From NCBI GenBank assembly GCA_030655145.1, contig JAURWD010000108.1, positions 1-35,702 of the forward strand: a DNA stretch of 35,702 nucleotides. Reading direction: 5' to 3'. The notes beneath the pieces were generated by a model, which was not told where the DNA came from, did no database searches, and worked only from the letters and a program-made list of their open reading frames with translations. The DNA is from Ferruginibacter sp. (GTDB lineage: Bacteria > Bacteroidota > Bacteroidia > Chitinophagales > Chitinophagaceae). The position numbers and the translations under genes were made by a program. Positions 28,497 to 34,002 of this stretch are shown one piece after another. How positions within the stretch are numbered: the stretch's first letter is position 1; the number at the start of each line of letters is the position of its first letter.

Positions 28497-28964
28497 ATGC
28501 AAACTCAATTCAACCAAACCGATTGTGATGCAATGGAAAACTTCACAGGGACTAAAAATTTCGATCCGCGGGATCTGCCTTATGATCTCGATGACCTCCT
28601 GACCCGGATACAGGCATCAGCCGGCAAAAAGAGTTTCCTCGTGTTTGATCACAATAAATATCTCACCGTGCCGACACGAAACATTGCTTACTTCTACGTG
28701 AAGTATGAATCTCCAAAAATTGTATGTTTTGATAAGCATGAATATTTTGTCAACTACTCCCTGGAACAGATCCGCAACCTGGTTACTGAGAAACAGTTTT
28801 TCCGGGTAAACAGGCAGTACCTCATTAATTTCTCTGCCATAAAAGAAGTGGAACACTATTTCGCCCGAAAATTATTGGTAAACCTTGTGGTACCCATTGC
28901 CGACAAGATGCTTGTTGCCCGGGAAAAAGCAAGTGGGTTTCTACAATGGCTGGAGAACCGGTAA
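28497..28964 (+). CDS. stand-alone LytTR DNA-binding protein (copy 1)
   Basis: 155 residues. A polar N-terminal stretch (1-43) is followed by a LytTR domain (about 44-155) with KKSFLVFDHNKYLTVPTRNI, the FRVNRQYLINFSAIKEVEHYF core (the H/NRQYlvN motif) and LLVNL...MLVAREKASGFLQWLE. No receiver domain, unlike classical LytTR response regulators, so its signal is not a simple phospho-relay. LytTR domains bind direct repeats near promoters. About two thirds identical, by hand alignment, to the second LytTR protein at 32957. Follows the alpha/beta hydrolase by 14 bp. Confidence 0.9.
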   Translation: MQTQFNQTDCDAMENFTGTKNFDPRDLPYDLDDLLTRIQASAGKKSFLVFDHNKYLTVPTRNIAYFYVKYESPKIVCFDKHEYFVNYSLEQIRNLVTEKQFFRVNRQYLINFSAIKEVEHYFARKLLVNLVVPIADKMLVAREKASGFLQWLENR

Positions 28965-29147: not shown

Positions 29148-29720
29148 ATGAATGCCGAAGAAATTTTAAAATTGCATGTTGCTAAGAGTATCACCATACC
29201 TGGTGAACAGTTTAGTTATTTCTTCTCGCATTTTGAGCAACTCACTTTCAAAAAAGGCCAGGCCATTATTTCAGATGGAGACAAAGTAGAGCACGAGTAT
29301 TTTGTTTTGGATGGATGCCTGAAATCATTCTACCTGAATGACGAAGTGAGGATGTTCATACTACAGTTTGCAATGCCCGGCTGGTGGGCCTCCGACTACA
29401 ATGCGCTCTATAACGGCGGCCGTGCAACCATCAATGTAGATTGTGTTACGAATGCAGAAGTGTTGCGCCTGTCTTCTACCGATAGGGAAAAATTGTGCAA
29501 GGAGATCCACGAGATCGAATACTTCTTTCGCTGGCGTACAAACAAAGGTTATGCTGCAGCTCAAAAAAAGATGTTATCCTTCATGAATAATGATGCGAGG
29601 TCTCGCTACGAAGAACTCATGCAACAATACCCGGCACTGTATAATTTAGTCCCCAAGCACCTGATCGCTGCATACCTTGGCGTTTCCCGGGAAACACTCA
29701 GCAGGCTTTACCACACCTAA
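29148..29720 (+). CDS. Crp/Fnr family transcriptional regulator
   Basis: 190 residues from ATG 29148 (MNAEEILKLHVAK); the frame is open to 29025, but those 41 residues are unlike the family. A cyclic-nucleotide-binding-type beta-roll (about 15-115: GQAIISDGDKVEHEYFVLDGCLKSFYLN) is joined by a long helix to a C-terminal helix-turn-helix (LVPKHLIAAYLGVSRETLSRLYHT). The recognition helix has Arg181-Glu182-x3-Arg186, the arrangement of E. coli CRP Arg180/Glu181/Arg185 that reads TGTGA. The effector is not evident, and no cysteine cluster for an iron-sulfur site is seen. Ends just before tandem TGTGA-type sites. Confidence 0.9.
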   Translation: MNAEEILKLHVAKSITIPGEQFSYFFSHFEQLTFKKGQAIISDGDKVEHEYFVLDGCLKSFYLNDEVRMFILQFAMPGWWASDYNALYNGGRATINVDCVTNAEVLRLSSTDREKLCKEIHEIEYFFRWRTNKGYAAAQKKMLSFMNNDARSRYEELMQQYPALYNLVPKHLIAAYLGVSRETLSRLYHT

Positions 29721-29727
29721 ACACTAC

Positions 29728-29743
29728 TGTGATATAGATCACA
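29728..29743. promoter_or_regulatory. CRP-like operator 1 (TGTGA-N6-TCACA)
   Basis: TGTGA TATAGA TCACA, a perfect match to the CRP half-site consensus in both arms. It lies 7 bp after the Crp/Fnr stop codon and is centred about 78 bp upstream of the start implied for the yceI promoter. Confidence 0.65.
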
Positions 29744-29764
29744 TAATTGCATGCGCATGTTGAA

Positions 29765-29780
29765 TGTGATGTAGGTCACC
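29765..29780. promoter_or_regulatory. CRP-like operator 2 (TGTGA-N6-TCACC)
   Basis: TGTGA TGTAGG TCACC, one mismatch from the perfect palindrome, exactly 37 bp from operator 1. Its centre (29772.5) is about 41 bp before the start suggested by the TTCCTTTG box, the class II activator position. The -33 region otherwise lacks TTTG, as expected of an activator-dependent promoter. Confidence 0.6.
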
Positions 29781-29802
29781 CTATTACCTGTCAATTCCTT
29801 TC

Positions 29803-29821
29803 TTCCTTTGTGATGTCAAAG
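29803..29821 (+). promoter_or_regulatory. candidate -7 box and small palindrome ahead of yceI
   Basis: TTCCTTTG (29803-29810) fits TAnnTTTG in seven of eight bases. Overlapping it, CTTTG-TGATGT-CAAAG (29806-29821) is a perfect 5-6-5 palindrome. The A-rich leader to the ATG at 29868 is typical of well-translated Bacteroidota genes. Confidence 0.45.
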
Positions 29822-29867: not shown

Positions 29868-30419
29868 ATGGACACTCAAACATTCAAATTAGCAACTGCA
29901 CAAAGTGAAATCGCCTGGATCGGCCGTAAAGTAACCGGTGCGCACAATGGAACCATCGCCATCGAAAAAGGATGGCTGAATTTTTCCAACGATCAATTGG
30001 TTGGCGGACAATTCATCATTGACACCACTTCGATCAATATCCTTGACATCAGCGATCCTGCAACCAATGCACAATTTGCCGGGCACCTTGCCTCGGACGA
30101 TTTCTTTTCTTCGGCAAAATATCCAACTGCCAGTTTCGAAATTGTTTCCGCTAAACAAAAAACAGGCGGTAATTATGACATCACCGGCAACCTCACCATC
30201 AAGGACATTACGTACCCGGTAAATTTTGATGCAACAATAGTGAACGACGGACAGACCGTAAATGCATCAGGAAAAATTGTCGTCAATCGTACCCTGTTTG
30301 ACATGAAGTTCCGCTCCGGAAATTTCTTTTTGAATTTGGGAGATACGTTGATCTACAACGAATTTGATTTAAATGTACACATCACCGCCAAAGCTGTTAA
30401 TACAGCCGTACTGGCTTAA
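29868..30419 (+). CDS. YceI family protein
   Basis: 183 residues of the lipocalin-like YceI barrel, which binds isoprenoid or other amphipathic ligands. Landmarks: SEIAWIGRKVTGAHNGTIAIEKG, the family core FDMKFRSGNFF near the end, DDFFSSAKYPTASFEI (the conserved FFDxxKYPxxxF block) and LTIKDITYPVNF. There is no signal peptide, so unlike E. coli YceI it should be cytoplasmic, as in many bacteroidete copies. It is the first gene after the tandem CRP-like sites and is followed 11 bp later by the tautomerase gene, opening the plus-strand metabolic operon. Confidence 0.92.
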   Translation: MDTQTFKLATAQSEIAWIGRKVTGAHNGTIAIEKGWLNFSNDQLVGGQFIIDTTSINILDISDPATNAQFAGHLASDDFFSSAKYPTASFEIVSAKQKTGGNYDITGNLTIKDITYPVNFDATIVNDGQTVNASGKIVVNRTLFDMKFRSGNFFLNLGDTLIYNEFDLNVHITAKAVNTAVLA

Positions 30420-30430
30420 AACGAACCATC

Positions 30431-30649
30431 ATGCCATACGTAAAAATTGAGCTCACCCGGGAAGGGGTGAGCAGGGAACAAAAACAAGTTTTGATCAAGG
30501 GGGTAACAGATCTGATCACGAATACACTGAACAAAGATCCGCACCTCACCCATGTGGTGATCCAGGAAATTGACCTGGATGACTGGGGCTATGCAGGAGA
30601 GCAGACTTCGGTATTACGTGAACGGGGAATTTCCGCCAATAAAAAATAA
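30431..30649 (+). CDS. 4-oxalocrotonate tautomerase family protein
   Basis: 72 residues, the usual small tautomerase size. After removal of Met, the N-terminal Pro (MPYVKIEL) is the catalytic base; REGVSREQKQVLIKGVTDLITNTLNKDPHLTHVVIQEI follows the family pattern. The C-terminal DDWGYAGEQTSVLRER resembles the PptA/YdcE-like branch, with a conserved Trp-Gly. It converts enol and keto forms of small unsaturated acids, or dehalogenates related compounds; substrate unknown. Co-directional and tightly spaced with yceI (11 bp) and the SDR gene (4 bp). Confidence 0.92.
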   Translation: MPYVKIELTREGVSREQKQVLIKGVTDLITNTLNKDPHLTHVVIQEIDLDDWGYAGEQTSVLRERGISANKK

Positions 30650-30653
30650 AACA

Positions 30654-31388
30654 ATGAAAAAGCAAACAGTAATAATAACTGGCGCATCATCCGGGATAGG
30701 AAAAGAGATCGCAAAACATTTCCTCGACAAAGGCGATAATGTGGTGATCAATTCTTCGACAGAAGAAAAACTACAAAAGGTATTTGAAGAATTTGGAGCA
30801 GGACAAAACCTTGCAATGGTTGCAGGAAATGTGAGTGACAAAAACACGGGAAAAAAGCTCGTTGCCACTGCAATGGAAAGATTTGGATCGGTCGATGTGT
30901 TGATCAATAACGCGGGCATTTACGATACCAGGCCCTTCCTGGAAGTAACCGAGGAATACCTGGACACCTTTCTAAATACAAACCTGAAAGGAACTTATTT
31001 TACAACGCAGGCCGTAATTCCTCAAATGCTAAAACAGCAGGATGGCGTCATCATCAACATCGGTACGCCGTTGGTAGGCCACGCCCTTGGCGGCGCTCCC
31101 TCAACAGCACCGCTTACCAGCAAAGGAGCCATACATGCGCTGACGCTGCAGCTCGCGGCTGAATTCGGGATCAATAACATCCGGGTGAACACAGTGGCAC
31201 CTGGTGTTATCCGCACGCCAATGCATGGCGAAGATGCCGACCAGAGAGCAGGACTTCATTTGCTTAATCGCGTGGGTGAGGTGGAGGATATCGCAGAGAT
31301 GGTCATCACGGTGGCGAAAAGCCGGTTCATCAGTGGTGCCATTATAAACGTAGATGGTGGCATGGCGGCCGGTCATAACTTAAACTGA
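30654..31388 (+). CDS. short-chain dehydrogenase/reductase family protein lacking the catalytic tyrosine
   Basis: 244 residues from ATG 30654 (MKKQTVIITGASSGIG); the frame is open to 30570, but that overlaps the tautomerase gene. NAD(P)-binding TGASSGIG (9-16), NNAG (85-88) and the PG motif after RVNTVAPG are present. At the active site, however, the usual YxxxK reads Pro153-Leu-Thr-Ser-Lys157, and the Ser strand reads INIGTPL (Thr138 at the Ser position). Lys is retained, Tyr is not. Either a different acid is used or the protein is a binding or regulatory relative. Ends GAIINVDGGMAAG, the usual C-terminal strand. Operon member. Confidence 0.88.
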   Translation: MKKQTVIITGASSGIGKEIAKHFLDKGDNVVINSSTEEKLQKVFEEFGAGQNLAMVAGNVSDKNTGKKLVATAMERFGSVDVLINNAGIYDTRPFLEVTEEYLDTFLNTNLKGTYFTTQAVIPQMLKQQDGVIINIGTPLVGHALGGAPSTAPLTSKGAIHALTLQLAAEFGINNIRVNTVAPGVIRTPMHGEDADQRAGLHLLNRVGEVEDIAEMVITVAKSRFISGAIINVDGGMAAGHNLN

Positions 31389-31457: not shown

Positions 31458-31838
31458 ATGAAAAACAACCAGGCAGATATTGACGTCATCAGCAATGCAC
31501 TTGAGCAGTTTTACTTCAAGGGCATTTACAAAGGAGATCTTGATTTACTCAACCAGGTATTTAATGAAGGTGCGTTGCTGTTCGGTGACGTAAAGGGGCA
31601 ACCTTATGCAAAAACACTGGAAGTATATTTGGAGGGTGTAAAGAACCGGGTAAGCCCGCAACATTCCGGCAAGCCGTTTAAGGGGGATATCCTTTCGATA
31701 AAAGTAATTAACTCGATAGCGATAGCTGAAGTAGCAGTGAAAATGTACGAGTTCAATTACCAGGAGTTTCTTTCCTTTCACCGCATTGATGGCAAATGGC
31801 TCCTCGTCAACAAAATGATGAGCGATGTAGAAAACTAA
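31458..31838 (+). CDS. NTF2-like / putative lumazine-binding family protein
   Basis: 126 residues from ATG 31458; an upstream ATG at 31422 lies inside the inverted repeat and is unlikely. The sequence follows the SnoaL/NTF2 cone fold of the putative lumazine-binding type: ALEQFYFKGIYKGDLDLLNQVFNEGALLFGDVKGQPYAKTLEVYLEGV, then beta strands SIAIAEVAVKMYE and EFLSFHRIDGKWLLVNKMM. This family is often found beside redox enzymes and probably binds a small ligand; no catalysis is shown. It ends 11 bp before the nitronate monooxygenase ATG. Cytoplasmic. Confidence 0.85.
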   Translation: MKNNQADIDVISNALEQFYFKGIYKGDLDLLNQVFNEGALLFGDVKGQPYAKTLEVYLEGVKNRVSPQHSGKPFKGDILSIKVINSIAIAEVAVKMYEFNYQEFLSFHRIDGKWLLVNKMMSDVEN

Positions 31839-31849
31839 AAAAACACGCT

Positions 31850-32929
31850 ATGTGGTACAACACGCGAGCAACAGAAATACTCGGGATCGATTATCCAATT
31901 ATGCAGGGGCCGTTTGGTGGCGGACTATCAACCGTAGCATTGGTAGCAACGGTTTCGAATGCAGGTGGTTTGGGCGGCTATGGCGCCTATACCTTAAGCC
32001 CGCAGGAGATCTACGAGGTTGATAAAAAAATAAAAGCGGCGACGAACAGGCCGTATAATCTTAACCTCTGGGTTTCTGATTCGGATGCTATTGATGGTAC
32101 GGTTTCAGACGAATATTTCGAAGGCGCGAAAGCACTCTTCAAACCGTATTTTGATGAATTGGGGATTCCACTTCCCGAAAAGCCAGCTCCTTTTAAATCA
32201 CGTTTTGAAAACCAGGTTGAAGTGATATTGTCTATACGTCCAAAAGTGTTCAGTTTTATGTTTGGTATTCCCTCAGCAGATATTTTGGAGCAATGCCGCA
32301 GGCTAGGTATTAAAACGATCGGTGCGGCCACAACCCTTGATGAAGCGATCGCTTTGGAAACTGCCGGCGTGGACCTGGTCATCGCTTCGGGCTTTGAAGC
32401 TGGTGGTCACCGGCCCTCCTTCCTGGCTCCATCGGAACAGTCAATGCACGGCACGTTTGTGCTCACACAACTTATCAAAGAAAAAATAACAACACCGGTT
32501 ATTGCTGCAGGCGGTATCGCCAATGGACGTGGTATTGCAGCAGCACTCACCCTGGGTGCATCAGCGGCGCAAGTAGGAACTGCCTTCCTGGCTACTGATG
32601 AATCCGGCGCCGTACCCATTTACCGGCAAATGTTATTTTCAGATGCAGCAAAATACACAACCTTAACCCGTGCATTTACGGGTAGGCTTGGCCGTGGTAT
32701 CACCAACAGGATCGCAAAAGAGTTGTCCGGGAAGGAGAAAGAATTTTTACCGTTCCCCTTGCAAACCACGTTTATGTCATCGCTGAGAAAGGCGGCCATC
32801 GAACAGCAAAAATCGGATATGGTGTTGTTTTGGGGAGGACAGGTCGCTCCAGTATTGAAACATACCAGGGCGGCCGACCTCATGCATTCCCTCGTACAGG
32901 AAACTGGTGATATCCTGGCAAACAGATGA
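31850..32929 (+). CDS. nitronate monooxygenase (NMO family)
   Basis: 359 residues from ATG 31850; the longer frame to 31796 overlaps the previous gene. TIM-barrel FMN enzyme: PIMQGPFGGGLSTVALVATVSNAGGLGGYGAY at the N-terminus (FMN phosphate and base contacts), IGAATTLDEAIALETAGVDLVIASGFEAGGH with the catalytic His187, AAGGIANGRGIAAALTLGASAAQVGTAFLAT for phosphate binding, and FTGRLGRGI near the end. It oxidises alkyl nitronates such as propionate-3-nitronate, and related NMO-fold members are NADH:quinone reductases, so a quinone role is also open. Centre of the plus-strand operon. Confidence 0.92.
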   Translation: MWYNTRATEILGIDYPIMQGPFGGGLSTVALVATVSNAGGLGGYGAYTLSPQEIYEVDKKIKAATNRPYNLNLWVSDSDAIDGTVSDEYFEGAKALFKPYFDELGIPLPEKPAPFKSRFENQVEVILSIRPKVFSFMFGIPSADILEQCRRLGIKTIGAATTLDEAIALETAGVDLVIASGFEAGGHRPSFLAPSEQSMHGTFVLTQLIKEKITTPVIAAGGIANGRGIAAALTLGASAAQVGTAFLATDESGAVPIYRQMLFSDAAKYTTLTRAFTGRLGRGITNRIAKELSGKEKEFLPFPLQTTFMSSLRKAAIEQQKSDMVLFWGGQVAPVLKHTRAADLMHSLVQETGDILANR

Positions 32930-32956: not shown

Positions 32957-33508
32957 ATGGAAACTTCATCCAAAAGAAATATGATCATTCCCCGGGAGCT
33001 TTTTAGCAGCTTACCTGGTTTCAAAGAAGGCAACCTTTCAATGATGCCTTATAGCAGAGAAAATATTGATACGGAAGTTGAGAAAAAAGACAAGACTACA
33101 AAATTCTTTCAAAATTACCTTCAATCGATCCTGGATGAAACTTTACAGAAATTTATTACGCCAACAGGCAAGCAGAGCTTTCTTGTTTTCAAACATAATA
33201 AGTACATCCCGATACCAACAGAAAGTATCGCTTTCTTTTACGTCAAATATGAATCCTCTATTATTGTGACATTTGACCGGCAGGAATATTTTGTGAATTA
33301 TTCGCTGGATGAAATACAGCAACTCCTAAGTGACAGGCTGTTTACCAGGCTAAACAGGCAGTACGTCGTCAACTTCAATGCGATCAAAGAAGTTGAACAT
33401 TACTTTGCACGCAAGCTGTTGGTAAACCTCACGATTCCAACCCAGGAGAAAGTGCTGGTGTCCAAAGAAAAGGCGAGTGGCTTTTTGAATTGGTTGGAGA
33501 GCAGGTGA
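32957..33508 (+). CDS. stand-alone LytTR DNA-binding protein (copy 2)
   Basis: 183 residues, with a longer unstructured N-terminus than copy 1 (about 70 residues) and a LytTR domain from about 70 to 183: KQSFLVFKHNKYIPIPTESIAFFYVKYESS, RLNRQYVVNFNAIKEVEHYFARKLLVNL, KVLVSKEKASGFLNWLESR. No receiver. By hand alignment about two thirds of the roughly 112-residue core matches the protein at 28497, with the stretch AIKEVEHYFARKLLVNL identical, so the two arose by duplication. It starts 27 bp after the nitronate monooxygenase gene and 32 bp before doxX, in the same direction, so it is inside the operon it may regulate. Confidence 0.9.
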   Translation: METSSKRNMIIPRELFSSLPGFKEGNLSMMPYSRENIDTEVEKKDKTTKFFQNYLQSILDETLQKFITPTGKQSFLVFKHNKYIPIPTESIAFFYVKYESSIIVTFDRQEYFVNYSLDEIQQLLSDRLFTRLNRQYVVNFNAIKEVEHYFARKLLVNLTIPTQEKVLVSKEKASGFLNWLESR

Positions 33509-33540: not shown

Positions 33541-34002
33541 ATGATACAACAACTGTTACAAACTGATGCCAGTTATACCTTGCTTTTGCTGCGGGTGGTA
33601 GCCGGCATTATTATTTTCCCCTACGGTATGCAAAAACTGTTGGGATGGTTTAATGATTTTGGTGGTGGCGTTGGTGTCAGAGGATCATTGCTTGAGTTCA
33701 GGAAGAAGAAGATCCCTGCAGTTTTTGCGTGGATGGTCATCATAGGACAATCTCTTGGAAGCATTGCACTGTTAACTGGATTTTGCGGTAGAATTGCAGC
33801 CCTTGGGAATTTCATCATTTTTACCGGTGCACTGGTAAGTCATTTGCCTGGTGGATGGGTAATGAACTGGAAGGGATATAAAAAAGAAGAAGGTATTGAA
33901 TATTTTGTGCTGTTGCTGGCGATATTGTTCGTAATTATTATCGACGGAAGCGGTGCTGTATCAATCGATCGTTGGCTGTTGCATGTGCTGAAATCAACCT
34001 AA
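33541..34002 (+). CDS. DoxX family membrane protein
   Basis: 153 residues with four membrane segments (about 12-30, 62-82, 85-105 and 120-140). The DoxX signature is present: LLLRVVAGIIIFPYGMQKLLGWF at the start and AALGNFIIFTGALVSHLPGGWV mid-protein. DoxX proteins are inner-membrane components linked to quinone or thiosulfate redox chemistry and to resistance to thiol and oxidative stress; here the partner is unknown. Last gene of the plus-strand arm, 32 bp after LytTR copy 2, and followed by the convergent hypothetical gene at 34188. Confidence 0.9.
   Translation: MIQQLLQTDASYTLLLLRVVAGIIIFPYGMQKLLGWFNDFGGGVGVRGSLLEFRKKKIPAVFAWMVIIGQSLGSIALLTGFCGRIAALGNFIIFTGALVSHLPGGWVMNWKGYKKEEGIEYFVLLLAILFVIIIDGSGAVSIDRWLLHVLKST

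Follow-up and report, generated by a model that had tools for sequence, protein, structure and literature searches.

A pair of TGTGA-type operators, placed between the gene for a short Crp/Fnr-family regulator and a yceI-led operon in Ferruginibacter sp., is real and well conserved in orthologous loci. We consider it highly probable that the 190-residue regulator is a local class II activator of this yceI-tautomerase-SDR-SnoaL-NMO operon, reading TGTGA in the manner of E. coli CRP, and that a second dimer at the distal site may help or tune it. The locus lies in a stretch of 35,702 nucleotides (contig JAURWD010000108.1), hereafter the window, with the following features:

29148-29720, + strand: Crp/Fnr-family regulator, 190 aa (PF00027, 37.9 bits, cut-off 27.5), ending just past the recognition helix
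29688-29705, + strand: codons of R181-E182-T-L-S-R186, placed by alignment with E. coli CRP
29728-29743, + strand: distal operator TGTGATATAGATCACA, 10/10 consensus positions, centre at about -79.5
29765-29780, + strand: proximal operator TGTGATGTAGGTCACC, 9/10 consensus positions, centre at about -42.5 (class II register, predicted)
29803-29810, + strand: -7 box TTCCTTTG, sigma-A type TAnnTTTG, its spacing to the operator constant in relatives
29868-30419, + strand: YceI-family protein, first gene of the operon (PF04264, 89.1 bits), first downstream in most orthologous loci
30431-30649, + strand: 4-oxalocrotonate tautomerase-like protein (PF01361, 57.6 bits)
30654-31388, + strand: short-chain dehydrogenase/reductase, SDR (PF00106, 171.6 bits), conserved in relatives
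31458-31838, + strand: putative lumazine-binding / SnoaL-like protein (PF12893, 76.9 bits), conserved in relatives
31847-32929, + strand: nitronate monooxygenase-family flavoenzyme, NMO (PF03060, 243.2 bits), conserved in relatives
33541-34002, + strand: DoxX-family membrane protein (PF07681, 48.5 bits), putative member and possible end of the operon

Operator pair, promoter geometry and conservation

The first-pass annotation had described tandem TGTGA-N6-TCAC operators between the Crp/Fnr gene and yceI, and both are present. The distal site begins 7 bp past the stop codon of the Crp/Fnr gene, which lies on its 5' side, the proximal site starts 37 bp after the distal one, and yceI follows on the 3' side. 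From the start of the proximal operator to the TTTG of the -7 box the distance is 42 bp; the TAnn half of this box reads TTCC in the window, not TA. In Flavobacterium psychrophilum, a TAnnTTTG box occupies positions -12 to -5 (PMC9723704). Applied to the window, this placement predicts a transcription start near 29815 and operator centres at -42.5 (proximal) and -79.5 (distal), and over the range of 41-42 bp from site start to TTTG the proximal centre would fall at -42.5 or -41.5. This predicted centre agrees to within one base with the class II register of CRP in E. coli. A class II geometry of the proximal operator (about -42), which had been proposed at first pass with the site near -41, is strongly supported as a prediction, and the distance of 41-42 bp to TTTG recurs in 22 of 25 orthologues. 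The 37- and 26-bp spacings found between paired sites correspond to 3.5 and 2.5 turns of DNA at 10.5 bp per turn and, being half-integral, would make a distal dimer face away from the proximal one.

The number of sites, in the window or in the genome, is not exceptional. Allowing up to one mismatch, chance predicts 1.1 sites per window, at least two occurred in 27 of 100 shuffles, and the perfect palindrome was found at four places genome-wide compared with one for the reversed control, which is close to random expectation. Since raw counts are near chance, the case for the operators rests on conservation: the pair, its 37-bp spacing and the 42-bp distance to TTTG recur in relatives, and the pair is therefore more than a chance occurrence. 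A third perfect GTGATNTAGNTCAC (exact GTGATATAGATCAC) in the genome, at L005:1501-1514 (G000 C205), is situated within a coding gene and is probably due to chance.

Conservation was assessed in 25 orthologues of the regulator (63-82% identity) from several Bacteroidota families, which are separated by a clear gap from the next relatives at 49% identity or less. They came from a search of the family and from named genomes including Ferruginibacter, Chitinophaga, Pedobacter, Sphingobacterium, Chryseobacterium, Niabella, Taibaiella and Chryseolinea. The check fixed in advance, a search for such sites by orthologous yceI operons next to a Crp/Fnr gene, bore out the conservation. A site with GTGA/TCAC arms follows the regulator gene in 22 of the 25 loci, and its proximal copy starts 42 bp (20 loci) or 41 bp (two loci) before TTTG. 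Thirteen of these 22 loci carry a second, distal site upstream at a spacing of 37 bp (nine), 36 bp (two) or 26 bp (two); where only one site is found, it is the proximal one that is retained. The region upstream of the regulator gene itself was free of sites in all 25 orthologues. The three orthologues that have no adjacent site (L034, L038, L065) are accompanied by a pair 2-3 kb away that faces an SDR gene (L125, L126, L065). At a further locus (L127, genome G387), the operon is in two parts, SnoaL-NMO and yceI-tautomerase-SDR, with about 3.4 kb between them, and an operator pair precedes each, spaced by 38 bp at one half-operon and by 37 bp at the other. These displaced pairs indicate that the sites accompany the promoter of the target genes, not the 3' end of the regulator's coding sequence.

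We also scanned 399 genomes of the family using a pattern that consisted only of the arms and the 37-bp spacing and thus contained no protein information. This blind scan returned 18 pairs in 16 genomes, and none for the reversed control. In all 16 pairs that were read, one side had TTTG at 41-42 bp, and for 15 of the 16 an orthologue of the regulator was encoded no more than 4 kb away. This proximity, together with the conservation of the pairs alongside the operon, argues for control of the yceI operon by the adjacent regulator, as the first reading of the sequence had suggested. When the pair was combined with TTTG and searched for in a phylum-wide sample of 297 genomes, the window itself was the sole match, which speaks for a low background and a patchy distribution. 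Four sampled genomes of the same genus (G035, G129, G198, G246) yielded neither the regulator at E 1e-30 nor paired sites; the locus may have been acquired or often lost within the genus. Within the host genome, the proximal site followed by TTTG was found at four places compared with one for the control, and of these four the window alone has the pair. A global regulon was rejected, as the palindrome is at chance level genome-wide, and the regulon in this genome looks purely local.

Orthologous loci mostly combine yceI with the tautomerase, SDR, SnoaL-like and NMO genes; elsewhere part of this set is found, and in Sphingobacterium the target is a DJ-1/PfpI-like gene. The enzymes encoded by the window operon and by related regulons suggest a role in carbonyl, quinone or other electrophile stress.

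The regulator and its recognition helix

By its PF00027 match and its fold, the regulator has an N-terminal beta-roll domain of the cNMP-binding type characteristic of the Crp/Fnr superfamily. Its AlphaFold2 model (pLDDT 90.4) places helices at residues 170-177 and 181-188 as a helix-turn-helix (HTH), though Pfam gave no HTH match at E 0.001. The fold is matched most closely by 3dn7 and also by CRP, GlxR and FNR structures. The chain stops at residue 190 and hence has no wing. In the recognition helix, S-R-E-T-L-S-R, the residues R181, E182 and R186 align with Arg180, Glu181 and Arg185 of E. coli CRP and are invariant, as is C117 in an alignment of 22 sequences.

The cAMP pocket residues Glu72, Arg82 and Ser83 are not kept in the alignment, where SD or TD takes the place of GE, and RS gives way to other residues. 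The regulator scored 26.1 bits against the CRP equivalog model PRK11753 of NCBIfam, the cut-off of which is 266. We rejected an identity as E. coli-type cAMP-CRP on the grounds of the differing pocket, the absent wing and the far missed equivalog cut-off. A search of the genome found no class I cyclase and four matches to PF00211 for class III cyclase-type domains. Although such class III domains exist, the unconserved pocket and the missing class I enzyme make cAMP an unlikely signal, and the label 'Crp-type' should not be taken to imply cAMP dependence.

In the window, the regulator and operon are flanked by two LytTR-domain proteins of the stand-alone kind (28497-28964 and 32957-33508), which share about 67% identity across 114 residues. 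Both copies are likewise found around the orthologous locus L056.

It had been proposed that the Arg-Glu-x3-Arg helix reads TGTGA, and the alignment with CRP and the co-occurrence of the arginine with flanking sites support this. Among 113 Crp/Fnr proteins of the genomes analysed, a flanking TGTGA palindrome with at most one mismatch accompanied 54 of the 79 with the arginine compared with one of the 34 without it (Fisher 1e-11, a value that ignores relatedness); for the remaining 25 Arg-bearing regulators no site was detected in the flank searched. Within an otherwise PETLSR clade, three of five members of an RETLSR subclade (L116, L118, L153) have sites, and two of these three flank a YceI-family gene. 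The arginine at the CRP Arg180 position therefore probably has at least two origins, one of them an independent gain, as judged from the tree. In the printed tree the helix labels of L114 and L144 were misread, so that L144 was counted as Arg-bearing despite its PETLSR helix; the Arg-bearing subclade is unaffected. An independent-pairs test of arginine against site yielded four pairs, too few for significance, and the association rests on few independent events. A clade with the helix AHYLG(V/L)SRETLSR (L102, L104-L107, L111, L113) has the arginine, but a search of its flanks gave no TGTGA site; these regulators may have their targets at other places.

In most members of a sister family (about 30-50% identity; L040-L055, L085-L122), a full TGTGA palindrome precedes TTTG by 64-65 bp, and a half-site of the form GTGAnnTATGTCCTT follows 23 bp later, at 41-42 bp; in a few members the site at 41-42 bp is the sole one. 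The two registers, each at a fixed position, suggest that class I-like and class II-like use would occur within one family. The first genes behind the operators of relatives (L067, L043, L049, L087, L089, L093, L116 and others) encode DJ-1/PfpI-like, RidA-like, aldo/keto reductase, SDR, flavodoxin-fold reductase and glyoxalase-fold proteins.

Proposed mechanism and alternatives

From these spacings and the helix alignment, we infer the following course of events. A regulator dimer would bind the proximal operator, centred at about -42, where it would take the place of the -33 element and contact RNA polymerase as a class II activator. TGTGA would be read by R181, E182 and R186 as by Arg180, Glu181 and Arg185 in CRP. 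Some 3.5 helical turns further upstream (2.5 in two relatives), another dimer may occupy the distal site and assist or tune this activation. The signal is probably not cAMP, and the regulon enzymes suggest carbonyl, quinone or other electrophile stress.

The same regulator might alternatively act from both sites as a repressor, in which case the proximal dimer would block the -33 region and be released by an electrophile or another ligand. Many regulators of such enzymes are repressors, and geometry alone is compatible with this reading given that the proximal site spans about -50 to -35 and thereby overlaps the -33 region. We nevertheless consider repression unlikely, because 22 orthologues keep the distance to TTTG constant to within 1 bp and because the sister family places its full site at 64-65 bp, near the class I position, and a half-site at 41-42 bp; occlusion would have no need for two activator registers. 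Further Crp/Fnr proteins are encoded in the genome and TGTGA-N6-TCACA is a generic motif, so that another member, for instance a global one, might read the sites with the neighbouring gene as a passenger. Of the three paralogues found in the genome, two have Pro-Glu and one has Ala-Thr where the regulator has Arg-Glu; the site shows no enrichment across the genome, and nearly all of the blind-scan pairs (15/16) have an orthologue of the window regulator within 4 kb, all of which makes a different reader very improbable.

That the sites act chiefly on the regulator's own transcript, by autoregulation, a roadblock or termination at its 3' end, seems to us the least credible reading of all. The stop codon is overlapped by the distal or sole site in several orthologues, as it might be under this reading, but the fixed distance is that to the downstream TTTG and not to the stop codon, and the sites relocate with the target and are absent upstream of the gene in the 25 orthologues. 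Termination or an RNA structure was rejected, as the fold is not unusual (z-score -0.08 against shuffles) and the region has no terminator-like site. The interpretation offered at first pass was accordingly retained for the tandem operators, the recognition code, the class II position and the control of the operon, and the autoregulatory or termination effects that it suggested for the regulator's own 3' end were dropped as unsupported.

Beyond local class II activation in the window, we tentatively entertain a broader, rather less likely scheme, in which a hitherto undescribed, wingless and cAMP-independent group of Bacteroidota Crp/Fnr proteins uses the E. coli CRP code, each member beside its own electrophile or carbonyl genes, with two exchangeable promoter layouts. 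If this were true, one layout would combine a class II site with a distal helper at half-integral turns (26 or 37 bp), and the other would pair a half-site 41-42 bp before TTTG with a class I-like full site at 64-65 bp. In the former, the proximal and distal dimers would then occupy opposite faces of the helix, and we know of no conserved arrangement of this kind from E. coli.

Comparison with known systems

Little is known about local Crp/Fnr mechanisms in Bacteroidota, where the primary sigma factor uses -33/-7 promoters, and literature searches on Crp/Fnr and TGTGA in this phylum, on yceI and Crp and on tandem class II sites found nothing direct. The locus brings regulator, operator and promoter together with locked spacings and so offers a ready system for study, in which a natural Pro/Arg swap in the helix tracks the presence of TGTGA sites. 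It makes testable both the use of E. coli class I and class II registers at Bacteroidota promoters and the effect of a distal dimer offset by half a helical turn.

The known Crp-like global regulator of the phylum, Bacteroides BT4338 (Cur/MalR), is an activator that is thought not to use cAMP (PMC6989115), and its motif is TATGTTnTAnAACATA (PMC3878776). It resembles the window system in belonging to the Crp family of a Bacteroidota host and in a 16-bp palindrome with the same central nTAn. The sites of the window and its orthologues do not match the BT4338 operator, having GTGA/TCAC arms, and they serve a local stress-type operon, whereas the BT4338 regulon is a global one for carbon starvation.

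The closest solved structure by both sequence and fold is 3dn7, a cyclic nucleotide-binding regulatory protein of Cytophaga hutchinsonii, which is of similar length and also ends soon past the recognition helix; it differs in being only about 30% identical and in having Pro-Glu where the regulator has Arg-Glu. E. coli FNR has the same fold, and its helix shares Glu-Thr-x-Ser-Arg with the regulator, but FNR carries Val at the position of the arginine and reads TTGAT.

With E. coli CRP and its class II promoters (e.g. galP1) the system shares the fold and the Arg-Glu-x3-Arg helix, its predicted operator centre is likewise near -41.5, and the operator consensus is alike (TGTGATCTAGATCACA in E. 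coli, WGTGATSTASRTCAC here). Unlike CRP, the regulator is without a wing, has Asp for E72 and Ser for Gly184 and does not keep R82-S83 as such; its regulon appears local instead of global, and its promoter is of the Bacteroidota -7 type.
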